From NCBI GenBank assembly GCA_013140405.1, contig JABFSV010000061.1, forward strand, positions 1-10,957: DNA of 10,957 bases. The letters run 5' to 3'. This DNA comes from Methyloglobulus sp. GTDB taxonomy: Bacteria; Pseudomonadota; Gammaproteobacteria; Methylococcales; Methylomonadaceae. The notes beneath the pieces were generated by a model. It ran no database searches, was not told the origin of the DNA, and saw only the letters and a list, made by a program, of their open reading frames with translations. The position numbers and the translations under genes were made by a program. Positions 97-9,737 of the stretch are shown one piece after another; within the stretch, counting starts at the first letter, position 1, and every line of letters starts with the position of its first letter.

Positions 97-801
97 TCAT
101 TTGATTTCCAATAGATAAGTGTCTATCACCAGGGTTTCATTCGGCAAAATGCCTTTTTCACTTAAGCCGTTCTCCCCGAAGGCCAAATCACCGGGGATAA
201 ACAACCGCCATTTGCTGTCCTGCGGCATTAGTAATAGTGCTTCCTGCCAGCCTTTGCTGACGATTTTTTGTAGCAAGATTTCGTACATCTTCGCTTTGCC
301 TTTGGTCATGGTATCGACCTTGACCTTGCCGTCAATACCGCTGATGGTGTACAAAATGCCAACGGTATCCTTAAGCCTGGGTTTTTCGACTTTGCCTGCT
401 TTTAGCACTTGGTACTGAACGCCGCTGGGCAATGCCACTACGTCTTTATTGGTCTTGTTCTGTTCCAAAAAGGCTTGTCCGGCGGCGAAATTGGCGGCTT
501 TAAGTTCCGCATAACTTAACCCGGCCAAGGCTTGCCATTCGGCTTGGGTCGGTTCTGCCGCTGTTTTACCCGCCAGGGCATCTTGCAAGCCTTGTCCGTA
601 AGCCTGTTGATCCAGTGGGTATTGCCCGTCACGTAAGCTTTTAATGTGCATCAAGCCCAGATTGTAGCTGGCTTGTTGCGCGGCATTGCTTAACGGGGCT
701 GATTTTTCAGCAGTGATTTCTTCGGTATTTTTGGGCGTTGTCGCAGCGCATCCGGTCAATACAGTAAATACAATAAGTAGTGGCAAGGGTTTTAGGGGCA
801 T
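97..801 (-). CDS. FKBP-type peptidyl-prolyl cis-trans isomerase-like lipoprotein
   Basis: The 234-residue product starts with a lipoprotein signal peptide whose lipobox LTGC gives Cys18 as the lipidated residue, so it should be anchored in the envelope and face the periplasm. Residues about 38-120 (SYNLGLMHIKSL... and a helical stretch) match the dimerisation-type N-terminal domain of Mip/FkpA proteins. Residues about 126-234 match the FKBP C-terminal domain: GVQYQVLKAG, ILYTISG, GWQEALLLMP, SKWRLFIP, LAFGE, ILPNETLVIDTYLLEI. Known FKBPs catalyse prolyl isomerisation and act as chaperones. Several active-site positions are altered: the usual VFDSS is KVDTM, the AYG tyrosine is Phe208, and QVIPGW has become KIVSKGW with one extra residue. 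Trp185 and Asp163 remain. Activity may be weak, so a chaperone-only role is possible. GGAG at 807-810 lies 5 bases before the ATG. Confidence 0.88.
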   Translation of the reverse strand: MPLKPLPLLIVFTVLTGCAATTPKNTEEITAEKSAPLSNAAQQASYNLGLMHIKSLRDGQYPLDQQAYGQGLQDALAGKTAAEPTQAEWQALAGLSYAELKAANFAAGQAFLEQNKTNKDVVALPSGVQYQVLKAGKVEKPRLKDTVGILYTISGIDGKVKVDTMTKGKAKMYEILLQKIVSKGWQEALLLMPQDSKWRLFIPGDLAFGENGLSEKGILPNETLVIDTYLLEIK

Positions 802-1330: not shown

Positions 1331-4093
1331 TCAAAACCCATAACTCCAGGTAAAATTCAACGAATAATCCCGGTCGAGCTGGTAGCCGTTGTAGTCGGTG
1401 TGGAGGGGTTGCAGCCACTCGAATTTCAACGTGTTGCCTTGGAACGCGCCGCTGGGGACGGTGACGTTTATCCCTAAGCCTAAATCGACAAACTGGCCGC
1501 CGTAGTTGGCGGGGAAATCGAAGGGGCCGATGTGTTGGGGGACGAAGGGCACAGGAAGCCCAGTATTGGGATCATTCACTAGCTCTTGGCTAGGCGGATA
1601 AGCGCCTTGAATCTTGCCTTGGCTTGTGTAAACCCCGCGCACGGTGGTTGCCAGCCAATTCGTCCAGTTATAGCCGCCCCAGACGCTGCTTTGGAAGATG
1701 TCGCCGAAAGCAAAACCGGATTCGTTGCTGTCTTCCAGGCGGATGGTGGCGTTGGTCTGTGCGCCCCAGAGGAAGTGGTCTATTTCGCCCGTGTATGTCA
1801 GCGCAGGCTTGAAGTCCCAGGTGCCGCTGCCCAGTTGCATACCGTAATGGATGAGTTGGTCGTCAACGGGATTAGTGCTGGTTTTCCGCAACACAATATC
1901 GATATCGCCAGTCGGCGCGGTGCCGCCCAGGCTTAAGGTCAAGTGGTGGTTGGGGTGGTCGAAGGGCTTGAACAAGGCGTAGAAACCGAAGTCGCCGATG
2001 CCGCCGGTTTGGTGTCCGTGGATAGTACTGTGTCCGCCGTGTCCGCCGGTATCGGAAAACTGGAAATTGTCGTTAGGTGTCATCTTCATTTCCATGTCCA
2101 TCCACTGCGGCATCAGCATTAGGGTCAGCCAATCCGTGGGGGCGTACATCAGGTCGAGCATGTGCATGCTCATCGCCATATAGTTCGGCGTGACGGCGCA
2201 TTCCCTGCCTTCACAGCCGTTTAAGTTGACTTCATCCAAACCGACTGGATGGCTGCCAGACAACATATCGCCAGCCTGTTCATTCCGCATAAAGCGATAA
2301 CCCGCCATGAAATCGCCTGCTTTAGGCAGGGTATGGTCGAACATCACCCCGGCGGGTGAATTGGAATGATGATGGTGATGTTCGCCATGCCCGTCATGGC
2401 TGCCGCCACCAGCATTTAACGCCCCCAGGTTAACCTTGAGCGCGGCGTTTGCCACCCAGTAATCGAAGTCGGCAAAATCCTGCTCGCCCCCGCTGCCTAT
2501 CTTCAAACTACCTTGGTGGGTGTAATACTCAAAGCCGGTTTCCAGGCTGATGCCTTTGGTGAATTGCTTCTCGACCGTCACCCCGCCGCTCAAAGTGCCG
2601 AAGCCAGACAGGCGCTGGTCGCTGGAGTAAAATTTAGGGAATTCACGAGTTAATTCTCCGTTATCAGAAATGAGAAAAATACCGGTGTTGGTATAAAAAT
2701 CGGCGGCGGATTGGGAGTAATAACGGACATGTGGTGTGACTGTCCAACCCGCACCCAAGGGCTGCACCCAGTCACCTTCGAAGGTGTGCGCCTGGATACC
2801 CCAGTCGTCGTGGGCAAAATGGTAGTTGAAATGCAGGGCGGCATCGAAGGGTTCGATATAGCGGTTATAGCCCAGGTGCCAGTTGAACAAGTTGCGCTCG
2901 TCGGGGCGGACTTCCAACAATGCTTTAGTACCGGTAACTTCCCCTACGTCTTGATCGGAGCTAAAATTTACGTTGTGGGCATAAACGAGCTTATAGGGAT
3001 TGGACAGGTAGCCGGTGCTGCGGGTGTAGGCCAAATCCAAGGACAGTAGCGAATTTTTATCCATTACTTGCGCCAAACCCAATTGCGCGCCCCAATCCTG
3101 CCGGTTGCCGCGCAAGACGGCATTTGCAGGTGTATATTGTCCATTGTTTGCGTCGTATTCACAATTGCCTTCAACATGGCCGGCAGCAACAGTGGTGGGC
3201 ACTTTGGGAACAGCGCCGCCATCGGGCGTGCAACTGAAATTCAGATACGAATCAGCGTCAAAGAAGGGGAACCCATCCGGATCGAGCGTGGCAAAGGTGT
3301 CGCTGTTTGTATAGCTGACTCCCCAGTTGAAAGTCGTTTGTTTCTGGTTGAAGTCAAACCGTCCTCCCAAACTGGCAAAGCGGGATTCGTAATCGTTCTC
3401 TATGGAAATACCGCCGCCAATGTCCAGTGCCGCCTCGTCCCATTCATAACTCAACTTGAAGTCGCCTTGTTTGCGGGTTTCCGGAGATGCGTAGGACATC
3501 ACATGGGTCAACCGGTTGTCTATAGGACCAAAGGTTTGTATGCCTCCTGGGTGGTTTATTGGATCTGTTAGGTCAAGGGAATTGTTCAAAAAATTAAGGT
3601 TTCTATCAATAAAATATGGATTGCCGTTAGCCTCCTGTGCGAAGGGCGATGCCCCGGTTAGCGAAATGATATTACCGAGGTTATCCCTAATGCCCCTTGG
3701 AATATTGACCTGTGCTACGACTGGAGCCGTACCTAAAGGTGTGGCGCCCGACCACGTATCCTGTGTGTAGTTGAAGGCAAACTTGATCCGGTCGGTCAGG
3801 GTAAAGCGGCCGCTGCCGTGGACGCTGTCGACCTCGATGGGGTTCAGGTTTTGCGGTAGTTTAGTGTCCAGGCTTTTGATGGAAACCCCTGGAACATAGT
3901 TTTTCACAAGGCCATAAATATCCCGCTTGCCTTCCTGGTAGTGGCTGTATTGGAAGTCTACACTGTCGTCTTCCGCCGCCTGTGCAGGTGTTTGCAACAA
4001 ACCGGGCAAGACCAGTGCGGCGGCGGTTAAAGTTTGTAAGGATGTGGGTATCCTGATCTGCTGCTGTGATTTTTTGTGATTAAAATCAGTCAT
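1331..4093 (-). CDS. fused double outer-membrane beta-barrel: DUF3570-like plus transporter-like domain with His-rich linker
   Basis: The product has 920 residues. A long N-region and hydrophobic core end in TPAQA, so a signal peptide is cleaved near residue 39/40. Residues about 44-558 resemble DUF3570 proteins (DFQYSHYQEGKRDIYG, VDSVHGSGRFTLTDRIKFAFNYTQDTWSGATP, TGASP) and show the alternating pattern of an outer-membrane barrel. Residues 566-576 form a His-rich linker (HDGHGEHHHHH). Residues about 580-920 match the standalone 'transporter'/MetA-degradation-like barrel family (GVMFDHTLPKAGDFMAGYRFM, MHMLDLMYAPTDWLTLMLMPQW, GIGDFGFYALFK) and end in a terminal strand SLNFTWSYGF with final Phe, as BAM substrates do. 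Met-rich (637-671) and His-rich (684-695) segments suggest copper or another soft metal. Both families are poorly characterised, so transport or metal binding is inference. AAGAGGA precedes the ATG at 4093. No internal stop or frameshift is visible between the two halves. Confidence 0.85.
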   Translation of the reverse strand: MTDFNHKKSQQQIRIPTSLQTLTAAALVLPGLLQTPAQAAEDDSVDFQYSHYQEGKRDIYGLVKNYVPGVSIKSLDTKLPQNLNPIEVDSVHGSGRFTLTDRIKFAFNYTQDTWSGATPLGTAPVVAQVNIPRGIRDNLGNIISLTGASPFAQEANGNPYFIDRNLNFLNNSLDLTDPINHPGGIQTFGPIDNRLTHVMSYASPETRKQGDFKLSYEWDEAALDIGGGISIENDYESRFASLGGRFDFNQKQTTFNWGVSYTNSDTFATLDPDGFPFFDADSYLNFSCTPDGGAVPKVPTTVAAGHVEGNCEYDANNGQYTPANAVLRGNRQDWGAQLGLAQVMDKNSLLSLDLAYTRSTGYLSNPYKLVYAHNVNFSSDQDVGEVTGTKALLEVRPDERNLFNWHLGYNRYIEPFDAALHFNYHFAHDDWGIQAHTFEGDWVQPLGAGWTVTPHVRYYSQSAADFYTNTGIFLISDNGELTREFPKFYSSDQRLSGFGTLSGGVTVEKQFTKGISLETGFEYYTHQGSLKIGSGGEQDFADFDYWVANAALKVNLGALNAGGGSHDGHGEHHHHHSNSPAGVMFDHTLPKAGDFMAGYRFMRNEQAGDMLSGSHPVGLDEVNLNGCEGRECAVTPNYMAMSMHMLDLMYAPTDWLTLMLMPQWMDMEMKMTPNDNFQFSDTGGHGGHSTIHGHQTGGIGDFGFYALFKPFDHPNHHLTLSLGGTAPTGDIDIVLRKTSTNPVDDQLIHYGMQLGSGTWDFKPALTYTGEIDHFLWGAQTNATIRLEDSNESGFAFGDIFQSSVWGGYNWTNWLATTVRGVYTSQGKIQGAYPPSQELVNDPNTGLPVPFVPQHIGPFDFPANYGGQFVDLGLGINVTVPSGAFQGNTLKFEWLQPLHTDYNGYQLDRDYSLNFTWSYGF

Positions 4094-4476: not shown

Positions 4477-4971
4477 TTATTGGTTCTGGGTGTAGCCAAG
4501 GAAAGTAGAGGGTTGTTGCGTTAGGCTGTTCAACACGATCTCGCAAGCATGGTTCAGCGAATAGTCATCGATAACGGCGATAGCGGTCGCTTTAGTTATC
4601 TTGATGCAATAATAATTATTGGGCGGCGTTTGGCTGACTGGAATTGTTGCAGTTCTCAGGCTCCAAGTCCCTTCACCGGTAGTGGTTTTAACAGGTGTCC
4701 AACTAGTTGCGTTGACGGCTGGGCAGGTCGTTGTGGAAGTCGATTTTGCGATTTGAACATTTATGTTGGGAATTGCGTTAATAGGAGTGTTGTCTTTAAC
4801 GTGAGTTGAAGCCACGGTGATGCCCTGTTGAGGGGAACATTTAAATAAGGCAATATCCGTTGCGGCGGTGGTTATTCCTAACGTACCGGTGATGCTTATT
4901 TGCGCATGAACAGCGGAACTTATCATTTGAGCTGCAAAAAACATCGCAATCATTGGAATTTTCGTTTTCAT
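4477..4971 (-). CDS. small secreted four-cysteine protein, paralogue of the next upstream gene
   Basis: The product has 164 residues. I chose the ATG at 4971 (MKTKIPMIAMFFAAQ) over a longer TTG-initiated frame because GGAG at 4978-4981 sits 6 bases before it and a signal peptide begins at once. Cleavage after AVHA would give a mature N-terminus QISITG. The mature chain has four cysteines (in FKC, TTTC, NYYC and HACE), likely two disulfides. It is collinear with the product of 5173-5649, sharing the blocks CS-Q-GIT-AST, DNTPINA-P, NNYYC and DDY--N--CEI. No characterised family is recognised. The repetitive layout (beta-rich, Thr/Ser-rich, no charged helices) suggests a small beta-sandwich exported to the periplasm or surface. 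No terminator is seen between it and the outer-membrane gene downstream. Confidence 0.78.
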   Translation of the reverse strand: MKTKIPMIAMFFAAQMISSAVHAQISITGTLGITTAATDIALFKCSPQQGITVASTHVKDNTPINAIPNINVQIAKSTSTTTCPAVNATSWTPVKTTTGEGTWSLRTATIPVSQTPPNNYYCIKITKATAIAVIDDYSLNHACEIVLNSLTQQPSTFLGYTQNQ

Positions 4972-5051
4972 AATAATCTCCAAAAAATATAAATTGGTTC
5001 GGTCGTTTAAAGCTGGCAAGGTGGCTTACTTAACCTGATAACGTTTGTTAA

Positions 5052-5088
5052 AAAACCCATAACTCCAGGTAAAGTTAATTTTATATTC
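5052..5088 (-). pseudogene. vestige of an outer-membrane-barrel 3' end
   Basis: On the minus strand the frame reads EYKINFTWSYGF. The true C-terminus of the 920-residue protein is DYSLNFTWSYGF, with the last eight residues identical. A stretch of 22 bases (5052-5073) is identical to 1333-1354 at the end of that gene. Here the frame does not stop after the final Phe but continues FNKRYQVK to TAA, and upstream it runs through the terminator hairpin with no start. It is most simply a leftover of a duplicated or deleted barrel gene. Chance or local sequence exchange is less likely given the matching frame and position. Confidence 0.45.
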
Positions 5089-5104
5089 AGTACCCCTAAA
5101 CGTT

Positions 5105-5139
5105 ATAGAAAGCCCACCCAAGCAATGCCTGAGTGGGCT
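5105..5139 (-). terminator. intrinsic terminator after the small Cys protein at 5173-5649
   Basis: On the minus strand AGCCCAC (5139-5133) pairs with GTGGGCT (5117-5111). An inner CAGGC/GCTTG stem (one G-T pair) extends it around a 3-base loop, and TTTCTAT follows. It starts about 33 bases after the stop at 5173, the normal place for rho-independent termination. The T-run is short, so termination may be partial, letting some transcription reach the paralogue at 4477-4971. Confidence 0.68.
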
Positions 5140-5172
5140 AGTTTGATTAGCTAGGCTTTAATTCCAGTTTGT

Positions 5173-5649
5173 TTAGTATGGAAATACGCCGATAAAGGTA
5201 GAAGATTGATGGTTTATATCGTTTTTGGTTATTTCGCAGTGTGAGTTAACCCGATAATCATCAGCAAGAGCAGCTCCAGTTCTAGCTACATCCAAACAAT
5301 AATAATTATTGTTGGGTGTTTGGTTTACTGATATATCCGTGGTGCGGGCACTCCAAGCGCCTTCAGTAGTTACTGTTTTCACCGCTGTCCAATTTGATGC
5401 GGCATTACAATTTGTGGCGCTGTTTGCTTTACCTATCCGCACACTAAAACCGGGAGTGGCGTTGATAGGGGTGTTATCCCTGACGGTAGTGGAAGCAAGC
5501 GTAATACCTACTTGTGTTGAGCATCTGAATAAGATTTTATGCCCCGTATTACCAGCAGCAATCGTATTGCCATAGTTATCGTGTGCGAATATTGAAGGTG
5601 ATAGGAAAGCGAATAATATTGCTACCAACCCTGTTAATTTCATATTCAT
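5173..5649 (-). CDS. small secreted four-cysteine protein with predicted N-terminal histidine
   Basis: The product has 158 residues. The ATG at 5649 (MNMKLTGLVAILFAF) was preferred to a TTG four codons earlier because GGAG at 5656-5659 stands 6 bases upstream. The signal peptide ends LSPSIFA, so cleavage would leave HDNYGN with His as residue 1 of the mature protein. Four cysteines (FRC, TNC, YYC, HCE) match those of the protein at 4477-4971 in order and spacing. The shared core includes GIT-AST, V-DNTPINA, VKT-T-EG-WS-RT, TP-NNYYC and DDY. No known domain is recognised. N-terminal His occurs in copper 'histidine brace' proteins (LPMOs, CopC, PmoB), but a second ligand is not proven here. A small palindrome, CGTTA-TCAT-TAACG (5669-5682), lies just upstream, and a terminator follows the gene. 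Confidence 0.78.
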   Translation of the reverse strand: MNMKLTGLVAILFAFLSPSIFAHDNYGNTIAAGNTGHKILFRCSTQVGITLASTTVRDNTPINATPGFSVRIGKANSATNCNAASNWTAVKTVTTEGAWSARTTDISVNQTPNNNYYCLDVARTGAALADDYRVNSHCEITKNDINHQSSTFIGVFPY

Positions 5650-5740
5650 TATAAACTCCAAGATATGCCGTTATCATTAACGACAGTTTAAAAATAATTA
5701 TTAAAACTTAGAGGTTGATTTCGTCGTAGATAAAACCTTT

Positions 5741-5757
5741 ACCTGTTGAGAACAGGT
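5741..5757 (-). terminator. hairpin after the 214-residue secreted protein, possible terminator
   Basis: ACCTGTT and AACAGGT form a perfect 7-bp stem around GAG. On the minus strand it lies 61 bases after the stop at 5818 and is followed by AAAGGTTTTATC, a weak T-tract. It could end the upstream gene's transcript or act in the leader of the downstream gene (start 5649). Confidence 0.35.
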
Positions 5758-5817
5758 ATCAAGTATTCCTAATCTACTAGAATTCGACTCTAAATTGCTT
5801 AGCGTATTAGGCTAAAC

Positions 5818-6462
5818 TTATTGGTCTATCAACAGATCAATATCGCTTTCATCTTCTGGGCCGAACTCGTTATTGCCAAACAACTCTGGAACTCTGCCAT
5901 TTTGTACCACTTGTGCTGTTCCAGTCTCTTCGCCGTCCGCATTCAGGCAGTGGAAAATAATGCCGTAGTTTTGGGACACCACATGAAGGTTGGTCTTGTC
6001 CACCAGGATGTTGTAATCGCCATTGGCGTTACCGGCATCGGCAGCGGCGTTAGGCGCACCTGCTTGCAAATGCGGTTGCAAAACCGCAAAGGCCGAGGTG
6101 GGTGTTGATCCTGCAGCCGCCGTACACGATTCAGTATCAATGCTGTCGCCGCTGGCATAGCCCGTATCAGACACTATCGCAGAAGGCGCATAGCCTTCCC
6201 GCGCGATTTGCACCCTAACTCCTAGGCCGGTGATGTTGGCGCTTTGCTTTTGTACCGCCGATTCCACGCGGTCGGCATCGCCATTCACGGTGTCGTTAAA
6301 GCATTGCAAACGGTACAAGTCATGGGTATTGGTGGCGCTGCCCAATTTTAAGGGTTGTACGTTAGCGGAGTTAAAACAATGCGCCGAAGCGACACCGGCA
6401 AAACCTGCTGAAACCAGCAATATTGATGATGCCAAAGCTGTTTTTTTGAAAAGAGTAACCAT
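5818..6462 (-). CDS. secreted protein with predicted N-terminal histidine, remote member of the small four-cysteine family
   Basis: The product has 214 residues, with AGGAG 8 bases before the ATG at 6462. The signal peptide MVTLFKKTALASSILLV... ends in GVASA, an ideal AXA site, leaving mature HCFNSANV with His1 and Cys2. It has four cysteines (HCF, LQC, ESC, FHC). The order of blocks resembles the two smaller paralogues: LYRLQC like ILFRC, VRVQIAR like VRIGKAN, YNILVDKT in the place of NYYC-I, and FHCLNADGE like SHCEI. Identity is low, so the kinship is tentative. I associate the pattern Y-hydrophobic-LVDKT...FHC with uncharacterised exported proteins of methylotrophs, from memory only. The C-terminus is acidic (FGPEDESDIDLLIDQ), unlike the paralogues. 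A role in metal binding is possible but unproven. Confidence 0.75.
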   Translation of the reverse strand: MVTLFKKTALASSILLVSAGFAGVASAHCFNSANVQPLKLGSATNTHDLYRLQCFNDTVNGDADRVESAVQKQSANITGLGVRVQIAREGYAPSAIVSDTGYASGDSIDTESCTAAAGSTPTSAFAVLQPHLQAGAPNAAADAGNANGDYNILVDKTNLHVVSQNYGIIFHCLNADGEETGTAQVVQNGRVPELFGNNEFGPEDESDIDLLIDQ

Positions 6463-7394: not shown

Positions 7395-8309
7395 TTAGTG
7401 TTCAATCTGGCTGTCGGACTGCCTGTTTTTTAAAAATTCCAACGCCATCTTCTCCCCGCCTCTAGTCGCCTTTTGCAACAAGGCAACGTCCTGGGATAGT
7501 GTGCTTTGGTCGGTTGTGCTGCCTGCATCGAGACCGGCTTTAGGCAGATTATTGAGTTCGGCGATGAGGGCAGGATCGGCGCTTTGGGCAATGCTGGCGG
7601 CGGCTTGTTCGCGCACATTGGGGTCGTCGTCGGTTAGGGCTTGGCGCAGTGCGTCTTTTACGTCGGGATCATCCGTTTTCCCCGACAAGCCCAGGTTGTA
7701 GAGCGCGGTCGCCCGTTCCTCCGGGTTTTTTGAGGCGGTTTGTTTTAGCGTTTCCTCAAACTGGTCGCGGTCGCGTTCGGCAATATTCGGGTGTTTAGAT
7801 TTTTGCTGTGCGGGTTTTGTCAATTGGGCTGGCATGGCCCCGTCTTTTGGGGAATCGGTGCGGGATATGGCGGATGGGGCGGACAATATCCACAGTTCCG
7901 CCGCTTGTGCTTGTGCGCCAGGGTTTAACGCCTGGGTTGCCTTGGCGAGTTTTTCCGGCATTTTGGCAGCCAGATTAGAACCCGGCCCCAACAGGCATTC
8001 GACGACCGTTTTAACGCTTGCTTCCGCGCACGTTACCGTTATGGGATTCGACGGCAAGGCGGAATAATGGATTTTTACCCCGGTCTTGGCGGTGAGTTGC
8101 TTAAGGATTTGCGCCAACGGCGCTTGCTTTGCTTCCAGGCGGATGGCGCTGGGCGCTTGTTTGGATAGGGTGATCCTAATGCTGGACGGAAGGCTTGGTC
8201 TTAAGCTTGGGCTTGCTTGTCCAGCGCTGGCGGATAGAGCCGGTGTACACAGCGCAAGGCTGGCAAAAAATAGCGGTAAAGCTAAAACTGAGGCGTGAGG
8301 AATGCCCAT
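7395..8309 (-). CDS. secreted protein with STN/secretin-N-like domain and HEAT-like repeats
   Basis: The product has 304 residues. The ATG at 8309 was chosen over an in-frame TTG at 8324 because GGAG lies 9 bases before it and falls inside the longer frame. A signal peptide (MGIPHASVLALPLFFASLALCTPALSASA) exports it. Residues about 44-146 resemble the STN/secretin N0-type fold: IRLEAKQAPLAQILKQLTAKTGVKIHYS, then PITVTCAEASVKTVVECLLG and AAELWILSA. After a Pro/Lys linker, residues about 197-255 form two HEAT/PBS-lyase-type repeats: EERATALYNLGLSG...VKDALRQAL and DDPNVREQAAASIAQS...LIAELNNL. STN domains serve in secretins and TonB receptors, and HEAT repeats bind partners, so a periplasmic adaptor or scaffold is plausible. 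No secretin or TonB gene is visible nearby. Cys94 and Cys105 may pair. Transcription probably starts from the promoter near 8472-8500. Confidence 0.78.
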   Translation of the reverse strand: MGIPHASVLALPLFFASLALCTPALSASAGQASPSLRPSLPSSIRITLSKQAPSAIRLEAKQAPLAQILKQLTAKTGVKIHYSALPSNPITVTCAEASVKTVVECLLGPGSNLAAKMPEKLAKATQALNPGAQAQAAELWILSAPSAISRTDSPKDGAMPAQLTKPAQQKSKHPNIAERDRDQFEETLKQTASKNPEERATALYNLGLSGKTDDPDVKDALRQALTDDDPNVREQAAASIAQSADPALIAELNNLPKAGLDAGSTTDQSTLSQDVALLQKATRGGEKMALEFLKNRQSDSQIEH

Positions 8310-9224: not shown

Positions 9225-9737
9225 TTACATCAAGCGGGCAACCTGCTGCGCCAACGCTTGACGGGTGAGTGCGCCGATGTGGCGGTATACGATTTTTCCG
9301 TTTTTATCGATGATAAACGTCGTGGGCGCAACGATAACGCCATAGGCATGGTTAAGTGTGTTATTTGCGATGACAATGGGGTAATTCACCCCATATTGCT
9401 TGGCAAACGTTTGTACACCCGCTTGAATTGACCGATCCATAGCCGCGCCGATCACAAGTAAACCCCGGTCGGCGTACTGATTTTGCAAGGCCACTAAATC
9501 CGGTGTTTCTTTTCGGCAAGGCGTGCACCAGGTTCCCCAAAAATTCAACACCACGACTTTGCCTTTATAGTCCTTTAGAGCGATGGTTTTCCCGTCCAAA
9601 TCGGTTAATTCGAAGTCTGGTGCGGGAACTACTGCAACATTGCTTTCGGCTACGGCAGGTTGTATTGCTGTAATTAAAAGCAAAACAAGCATCGTTAATA
9701 GACCTAATATTCCTGATAAAAAACGCTTGCTGTTCAT
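9225..9737 (-). CDS. TlpA-family periplasmic thioredoxin
   Basis: The product has 170 residues. The N-terminus (MNSKRFLSGILGLLTMLVLLLITAIQPAVA) is a signal peptide or anchor with a likely cut after AVA, placing the protein in the periplasm. The thioredoxin fold begins near residue 38 (PAPDFELTDLDGKTIALKDYKGKVVVLNFWGTWCTPC). Its redox pair is Cys71 and Cys74 (WCTPC), followed by RKETPDL and the cis-proline loop APTTFIID with Pro138, all typical of TlpA/ResA-type reductants. These proteins reduce disulfides for cytochrome c or copper-centre assembly; the exact client is unknown. The ATG overlaps the stop of the preceding gene (ATGA at 9734-9737), implying translational coupling with the beta-propeller lipoprotein, whose four cysteines make it a candidate partner. 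A terminator follows. Confidence 0.92.
   Translation of the reverse strand: MNSKRFLSGILGLLTMLVLLLITAIQPAVAESNVAVVPAPDFELTDLDGKTIALKDYKGKVVVLNFWGTWCTPCRKETPDLVALQNQYADRGLLVIGAAMDRSIQAGVQTFAKQYGVNYPIVIANNTLNHAYGVIVAPTTFIIDKNGKIVYRHIGALTRQALAQQVARLM

Follow-up and report, generated by a model that had tools for sequence, protein, structure and literature searches.

The stretch of DNA analyzed here (the window) is the whole contig JABFSV010000061.1 of the Methyloglobulus sp. assembly GCA_013140405.1, 10,957 bases long. An open reading frame (ORF) at positions 1331..4093 of its minus strand begins with ATG and encodes a protein of 920 amino acids, in which a DUF3570 domain and a second predicted outer-membrane barrel are fused through a His-rich linker. 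The features of this gene are as follows.

1331..4093, minus strand: gene of the DUF3570::COG4313-like double-barrel protein, 920 amino acids (ORF, Pfam, structure model)
3977..4093, minus strand: presumed signal peptide, residues 1-39 (AQA/AE cleavage read by eye; low predicted local distance difference test scores at 1-16 and 19-39)
2426..3964, minus strand: predicted barrel 1 (DUF3570), residues 44-556, about 16 strands as read from the strand list of the model (Pfam, model)
3740..3760, minus strand: DTWSGAT, residues 112-118, ApbE flavinylation motif (sequence, alignment)
3647..3658, minus strand: TGAS, residues 146-149, second flavinylation motif, lacking the Asp of the full motif (sequence, alignment)
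2312..2425, minus strand: inter-barrel linker, residues 557-594, including a stretch aligned to the COG4313 N-terminus with the invariant H587 (alignment, model)
2366..2398, minus strand: HDGHGEHHHHH, residues 566-576; at least three linker His in 129 of 130 aligned sequences
1334..2311, minus strand: predicted barrel 2, residues 595-920, 12 strands, COG4313-like fold (structure model)
2198..2215, minus strand: Cys pair of the first outer loop (C627 and C632), residues 627-632, present in 130 of 130 sequences
2075..2194, minus strand: Met-rich hairpin, residues 634-673 (M639, 641, 643, 645, 649, 659, 661, 667, 669; H644) (alignment, model)
2009..2044, minus strand: variable His-rich outer loop, residues 684-695, with 0 to 6 His across 130 sequences (median 4)

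Pfam assigned DUF3570 (PF12094) to residues 20-546 with an E-value of 4.3e-115 (385 bits against a curated cut-off of 25) and no family to residues 569-920 even at E 10. NCBIfam held no match for the fusion, and a PDB sequence search with the protein returned nothing relevant (best E 0.065). The predicted structure of the 920-residue chain contains two complete and separate barrels, the second of which takes the 12-strand fold of 4rl8 (COG4313) at 16% identity, the alignment beginning at residue 582 of the fusion and residue 2 of 4rl8. Based on this model, the two-barrel architecture can be regarded as nearly certain, and the claim of an earlier note that two barrels are fused in one chain was borne out, as were the segments it named, the linker motif (which lies at 566-576), the Met-rich segment at 637-671 and the His-rich segment at 684-695. 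The possibility of one large barrel is ruled out by the two separate barrels of the model, while a sequencing or assembly artefact is excluded by the 11 fusions in the same genome, which lie on nine contigs, and by many full-length homologues (50-93% identity among the best 120 of 1,360 matches; names include Methyloglobulus, Methylovulum, Methylomonas, Methylotenera, and Terricaulis). An origin through a stop codon lost between two adjacent genes was also rejected, because relatives across many genomes keep the same join.

The earlier note had also taken the two halves to be normally separate proteins. Both plain DUF3570 proteins and free-standing versions of the C-terminal barrel (C-barrel) were found, but the fusion itself turned out not to be rare. 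Among 151 genomes sampled from the order, 94 had a C-barrel match (93 of them represented among the matches listed), and 83 encoded at least one open frame of at least 800 amino acids containing the C-barrel. Of 369 genomes sampled from the class, 35 matched at E 1e-30; four of these have the fusion and 31 have shorter proteins, with open frames between 206 and 523 amino acids. Three genomes of the genus of the window carry 11, 13, and 7 copies and the other 80 carry 1 to 4, therefore the family has expanded in this genus. In the genome of the window (3.39 Mb in 545 contigs), DUF3570 was matched 13 times, and 11 of these matches are joined to a C-barrel (C298, C35, C520, C210, C526, three in tandem on C165, C452a, C29, and C99); the other two are C452b, cut by a contig end, and C263, a plain DUF3570 protein of 434-448 amino acids. 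In a barrel 2 tree of 100 rows, 14 free-standing rows were split from the other 86 by a 100/100 branch, two "free-standing" rows among the 86 being cut sequences (L060_3 by a contig end, L095_1 by the end of its own retrieved region). This tree has long branches for L072_782 and L111_885 and does not include the wider class-level free-standing barrels; its topology suggests that one single event likely lies behind the DUF3570 fusions. The window copy falls within a clade of seven copies from its own genome (100/99), 10 of the 11 being in the tree, since the C210 copy runs past its contig end and was too short. Separately, a short, stop-containing piece of barrel 2 was observed at a contig end (G000:C1:5249-5380, L017), on a contig with an apparent Tn3-type transposase and a resolvase recognized by eye.

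The DUF3570 protein of Chlorobium luteolum is described as flavinylated at two [ST]GA[ST] sites (PMC8238504), and a review gives the motif as D-x-x-[ST]-G-A-[ST] (PMC12052999). Barrel 1 resembles the DUF3570 proteins of such ApbE-flavinylated clusters in both [ST]GA[ST] motifs and in the cluster type of its relatives, and DTWSGAT fits the review motif exactly. Across 132 aligned sequences, G116 and A117 are invariant, residue 118 is always T or S, and residue 115 is S in 87, G in 28, A in 16, and T in one, while at the second site A148 is kept in 129 and S/T149 in 131. In 73 of 74 fusion ORFs the motif, allowing S, T, A or G at the fourth place, falls within the N-terminal 420 residues (strict form, 58 of 74). 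Judged by side-chain parity, D112 and W114 lie on the polar face of strand 3, and T118 would have lumen-side parity if the strand continues through its break at residue 116 in the model, which places motif 2 in a stretch read as an outer loop. Flavinylation of the family is judged quite probable; the window copy is assigned lower odds because ApbE is not adjacent. Five fusions of 1,101-1,231 amino acids (L079, L084, L088, L099, and L105), three of them from Methylomonas, have an apparent large insert past flavinylation motif 1.

Published DUF3570 clusters contain DsbD, thioredoxin-like and DUF4266 proteins (PMC8238504), and a comparable setting was found around the relatives of the window gene. 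The best 80 of 262 places were examined as named loci, including Nitrosomonas and Crenothrix, with flanks of up to 8 kb, many of them shorter; 70 hold a fusion and 10 only a C-barrel, and one of the latter (L060) is a fusion cut by a contig end, leaving nine true free-standing loci. DUF4266 was present in 69, thioredoxin in 62, ApbE in 54, and a HEAT protein in 40 of the 70 fusion loci, with ApbE, DUF4266, and thioredoxin all present in 50, and none of the four was detected in the flanks of the nine free-standing loci. Counted as gene pairs around 74 fusion ORFs, 71 DUF4266 genes lie directly upstream, 57 thioredoxins at most 1.2 kb upstream, and 46 ApbE genes directly downstream. The operon members were confirmed by Pfam in Methylobacter luteus and Nitrosomonas halophila. 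Within the genome of the window, DsbD adjoins the C35 and C99 copies, C263 is a plain cluster of TlpA, DUF4266, DUF3570, and DsbD, and ApbE is represented elsewhere by one near-complete and one partial match. At L012 (around 4891-4931) and L013 (around 389-423), the end of the DUF4266 gene overlaps the open frame of the fusion in a different frame, and because of this overlap the true start of operon-type fusions is uncertain.

Barrel 2 and the linker are rich in potential metal ligands. Residues 637-671 include 11 Met in 35 and residues 684-695 four His in 12; assuming a background of 2.3% for each amino acid, the chance of the Met cluster is about 2e-7 after correction for 886 positions and that of seven His within 14 residues is about 9e-6. 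C627, C632, H587, M596, M643, H644, M645, M661, M667, M669, and M752 are invariant in 130 of 130 sequences, M639, M641, M649, and M659 occur in 127 to 129 of them, and the Met segment always has 9 to 12 Met (median 10); less constant are H692 (90 of 130) and H717 (100 of 130). The facing of the Met side chains was also judged by parity. In strand 634-650 the Met face is the less hydrophobic one when Met is excluded, and in the half-strand 656-664 a lumen-facing Met row is favoured over a few residues; barrel 2 may accordingly be pictured as Met-lined, a description kept conditional because the test splits the faces in strand 634-650 and not in the whole of 656-673. The topology of the barrels would place the His-rich linker on the periplasmic side, not outside. 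The free-standing barrels in a 12-row alignment keep the Met row, P0119 lacking the His and both Cys. In a wider set, from 28 of the 31 class-level genomes with free-standing barrels (G299, G405, and G435 were left out), Met content was at least 5.6% in 26. Besides, the relatives L048 and L050 match PF13557 in Pfam, and L046 and L147 do not.

The free-standing barrels provide a link to copper. CutF/DUF2946 copper leaders are described (PMC9973294) as small proteins with close Cys and a C-terminal RxPP, and a CutF-like small gene lies directly upstream of eight of the nine free-standing C-barrels (Hyphomicrobium, Methyloceanibacter, and others), with overlapping called frames in four of the eight loci. 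Over the 80 loci, 19 of the 2,521 ORFs of 70-210 amino acids show the CutF-like pattern, the eight included; a DUF2946 Pfam match was absent in two of these eight. In the wider set of 28 loci, five have a CutF-like gene (the pattern occurs in 8 of their 641 small ORFs, the five included; for L127, L138, and L150 the assignment is by this pattern) and four have CusF directly upstream (L142, L146, L147, and L149). L147 shows the Pfam-tested order CusF, barrel, OEP, CusB with a heavy-metal domain, and CusA, whereas the further Cus-like neighbours in L142, L146, and L149 were recognized by eye; in L049, PCuAC lies next to the barrel. This context makes a copper link of barrel 2 fairly probable. 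Four free-standing barrels from alphaproteobacteria (L045, Pfam-tested, L047, L048, and L050) also have a ChrA-like chromate transporter about 2 kb upstream, and the Met-rich-barrel relatives L154 and L155, on Ruegeria and Methylocystis iwaonis plasmids, are annotated "transporter" or "alpha-amylase", the latter name looking wrong.

The earlier suggestion of metal capture thus stands in part, through this copper link and the conserved Met and His segments, but it misses the redox half, because the N-terminal half is of a kind known to be flavinylated and retains the motif, and its relatives lie in a thioredoxin/DUF4266/ApbE operon.

A comparable arrangement occurs outside the order. The Methylosinus sp. 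C49 plasmid NZ_AP022335.1 (L156:3531-5747) encodes a 738-residue chain made of an OMP_b-brl barrel, a long His/Gly-rich linker, and a Met-rich barrel, which shares 28% identity with the window protein over 296 columns (E 1e-23). A search with this chain returned 28 proteins, 15 of which (P0242-P0256; 663-741 amino acids; two named Methylosinus) score with the C-barrel model, 13 of the 15 having an M-x-M-H-M hairpin pattern; in P0258, P0259, and P0262 the C-barrel apparently lies ahead of the other barrel, from match position alone. A Met-rich barrel was apparently joined to another barrel more than once in methanotrophs, with DUF3570 in Methylococcales and with OMP_b-brl in Methylosinus, a His-rich linker lying between. 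P0263, P0264, and P0266 (two named Methylosinus/Methylocystis) combine OMP_b-brl with an alginate-export barrel in precomputed Pfam data, possibly further methanotroph double barrels.

We tentatively propose a coupled mechanism of reductive copper acquisition by a flavin barrel and a metal barrel of one chain. ApbE would flavinylate barrel 1 at T118 and probably also at S149, and electrons would pass from the periplasmic thioredoxin and DUF4266 (in some copies DsbD) through the barrel 1 flavins to the outer membrane, where these would reduce Cu(II) to Cu(I). Barrel 2, a COG4313-type channel of 12 strands, Met-lined and flanked by Cys and His, would bind or conduct copper, passing Cu(I) by way of the Met residues and the plug His on to the His-rich linker in the periplasm. 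The computations show the fusion, two modelled barrels, a retained flavinylation motif, conserved ligands, a redox operon around relatives, and copper genes near some free-standing relatives. The presence of flavin, the identity of the metal, the orientation of the Met side chains, the sequence of transfer steps, and the inward direction are inferred. Given copper, import is a reasonably probable direction compared with export. Our confidence in the mechanism falls short of even, and was slightly lowered once the larger set of free-standing barrels turned out to be less uniform than first judged. The more specific picture of a flavin-wired outer-membrane metal reductase, in which electrons traverse the outer membrane by way of covalent flavin mononucleotide in one barrel and reduce copper entering through a Met-lined second barrel, seems somewhat unlikely.

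Several observations weigh against this proposal. Residue 115 is G or A, off the strict motif, in 44 of 132 sequences, the window contig lacks ApbE, DUF4266, and DsbD, and the face test gave practically no difference for strand 656-673 taken whole. The copper evidence derives from the free-standing relatives: no CutF-like gene was found near any of the 74 fusions, all DUF2946 matches are below the curated cut-off (six of eight at E 0.1 or lower, best 23.6 against 23.7), and L130 and L135 had no Pfam match. Moreover, 19 of the 28 wider loci have neither a CutF-like nor a CusF neighbour, two of these barrels are not Met-rich (L143, 2.3%; L148, 1.6% Met), and the narrow Met-hairpin pattern fits only nine of the 28. 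The Cus operons indicate efflux rather than uptake, the PepSY_TM and FeoB genes adjoining the Methylosinus double barrel could mean iron, and those COG4313 channels whose function is known are linked with hydrophobic molecules (PMC4493636). In addition, pmoA (122 of 151 genomes) and the barrel (94 of 151) do not correspond one-to-one, G120 and G052 having the barrel without a pmoA match and G020 and G054 the reverse; pmoA was dropped as a copper proxy, and no inference was drawn from it because the exceptions run both ways.

Copper (or silver) export or defence, with barrel 2 as a Cu(I) exit or buffering pore and the flavin barrel giving reducing power or keeping thiols reduced, would explain why four free-standing relatives follow CusF, one of them in the Pfam-tested cus-like operon, and would suit CutF-like proteins, often encoded upstream of heavy-metal detoxification genes (PMC9973294). 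We consider it unlikely, as the genome of the window has no CusF match and the operon around the fusions is of redox type, although the fusion loci were not searched for Cus efflux genes. Iron acquisition, in which the flavins would reduce Fe(III) at the outer membrane and Fe(II) would move inward, appears quite unlikely: some free-standing relatives sit among copper genes, and the conserved Met, Cys, and His ligands generally favour Cu(I), even though FeoB and PepSY_TM adjoin the Methylosinus double barrel and the VIT1 ferrous transporter occurs in 25 gene clusters of the eLife survey (PMC8238504). Among PepSY_TM proteins are reductases of ferrisiderophores and one that has been proposed to reduce copper (PMC13038864). 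Improbable to a similar or greater degree is extracellular electron transfer, with barrel 1 conducting electrons by flavin to acceptors outside the cell and barrel 2 serving as a structural or docking partner; the ApbE/DUF4266/thioredoxin operon, the lumen-side parity of motif 1 in strand 3, and the apparent outer-loop position of motif 2 agree with it, but the invariance of the barrel 2 metal ligands is left unexplained. Uptake of a hydrophobic or amphipathic substrate, with Met as hydrophobic lining, is very improbable: COG4313 members of known function and the detergent bound in the barrel (PMC4493636) favour it, but the same positions hold Met, His, and Cys throughout 130 sequences, and some relatives have copper-gene neighbours.

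Each part of the reductive copper acquisition proposed here has a known relative, and the combination in a redox-metal setting was not met in the literature searched. The published DUF3570 domain has about 420 amino acids (PMC8238504), whereas in the window protein another barrel follows it in the same chain; neither "barrel" nor "porin" appears in the main text of that paper. Barrel 2 shares the 12-strand fold of the COG4313 channel (PDB 4rl8; PMC4493636) but differs in its Met-rich hairpin, Cys pair, His loop, and fusion to another barrel, and some of its relatives have a copper-linked context instead of the hydrophobic molecules of COG4313 channels (same source). Porin-cytochrome and Cyc2-type conduits likewise involve a proposed electron passage through an outer-membrane barrel, but unlike the haem conduits MtrAB and Cyc2 the fusion has no CxxCH haem site (four Cys in all the 920 residues) and would use flavin instead. 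The proposed outer-membrane copper entry recalls the TonB-dependent receptors OprC and CrtA, from which the protein differs by having no Pfam match to a TonB plug domain at E 0.1, Pfam giving DUF3570 alone. Multi-barrel outer-membrane chains, which resemble the fusion in having two barrels per chain through fusion in particular lineages, are reportedly known as a class in which eight-stranded barrels prevail, as Solan and co-workers are said to have described in PNAS in 2021. The arrangement was earlier thought to be possibly undescribed; no paper on the fusion was recognized in full-text searches, yet many copies exist in databases as "DUF3570 domain-containing protein" and multi-barrel chains are reportedly known as a class. 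The family is not named in the available parts of PMC11784148 and PMC4831470, on methanotroph copper response and surface proteins, or of PMC13322032, on a Methylobacter outer-membrane electron conduit.

These results suggest that the flavinylation substrate DUF3570, whose function is uncertain, forms a barrel in the outer membrane and carries flavin in its interior, and that the Met-rich branch of COG4313-like channels may represent a family of copper proteins currently annotated as transporter, phenol-degradation protein, or alpha-amylase. To our knowledge, copper supply for methane oxidation in methanotrophs without methanobactin is still an open question, for which the conserved operon, present in cultured methanotroph genera, offers a deletable candidate.

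The remaining features of the window are given below.

7395..8309, minus strand: presumably secreted protein with HEAT repeats, upstream of the fusion (40 of the 70 related fusion loci contain BLAST relatives)
5818..6462, minus strand: small protein, presumably secreted, to which Pfam assigns no family (some other fusions have weak relatives, at 25-31%, in their vicinity)
9225..9737, minus strand: TlpA/ResA-like thioredoxin, about 5 kb upstream of the fusion, membership in the system uncertain (Pfam, NCBIfam)
97..801, minus strand: FKBP-type peptidyl-prolyl isomerase, downstream of the fusion (a relative also lies downstream of the C526 paralogue)

Small secreted-looking proteins are encoded upstream of several fusions (window, 4477-6462; L004, 3077-3655; L010, 5383-5835; L012, 905-1399); those tested had no Pfam match, and these proteins may belong to the system as well. 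Downstream of the window fusion, besides the FKBP gene, lies a weakly Tmem14-like gene, with a match below the cut-off.

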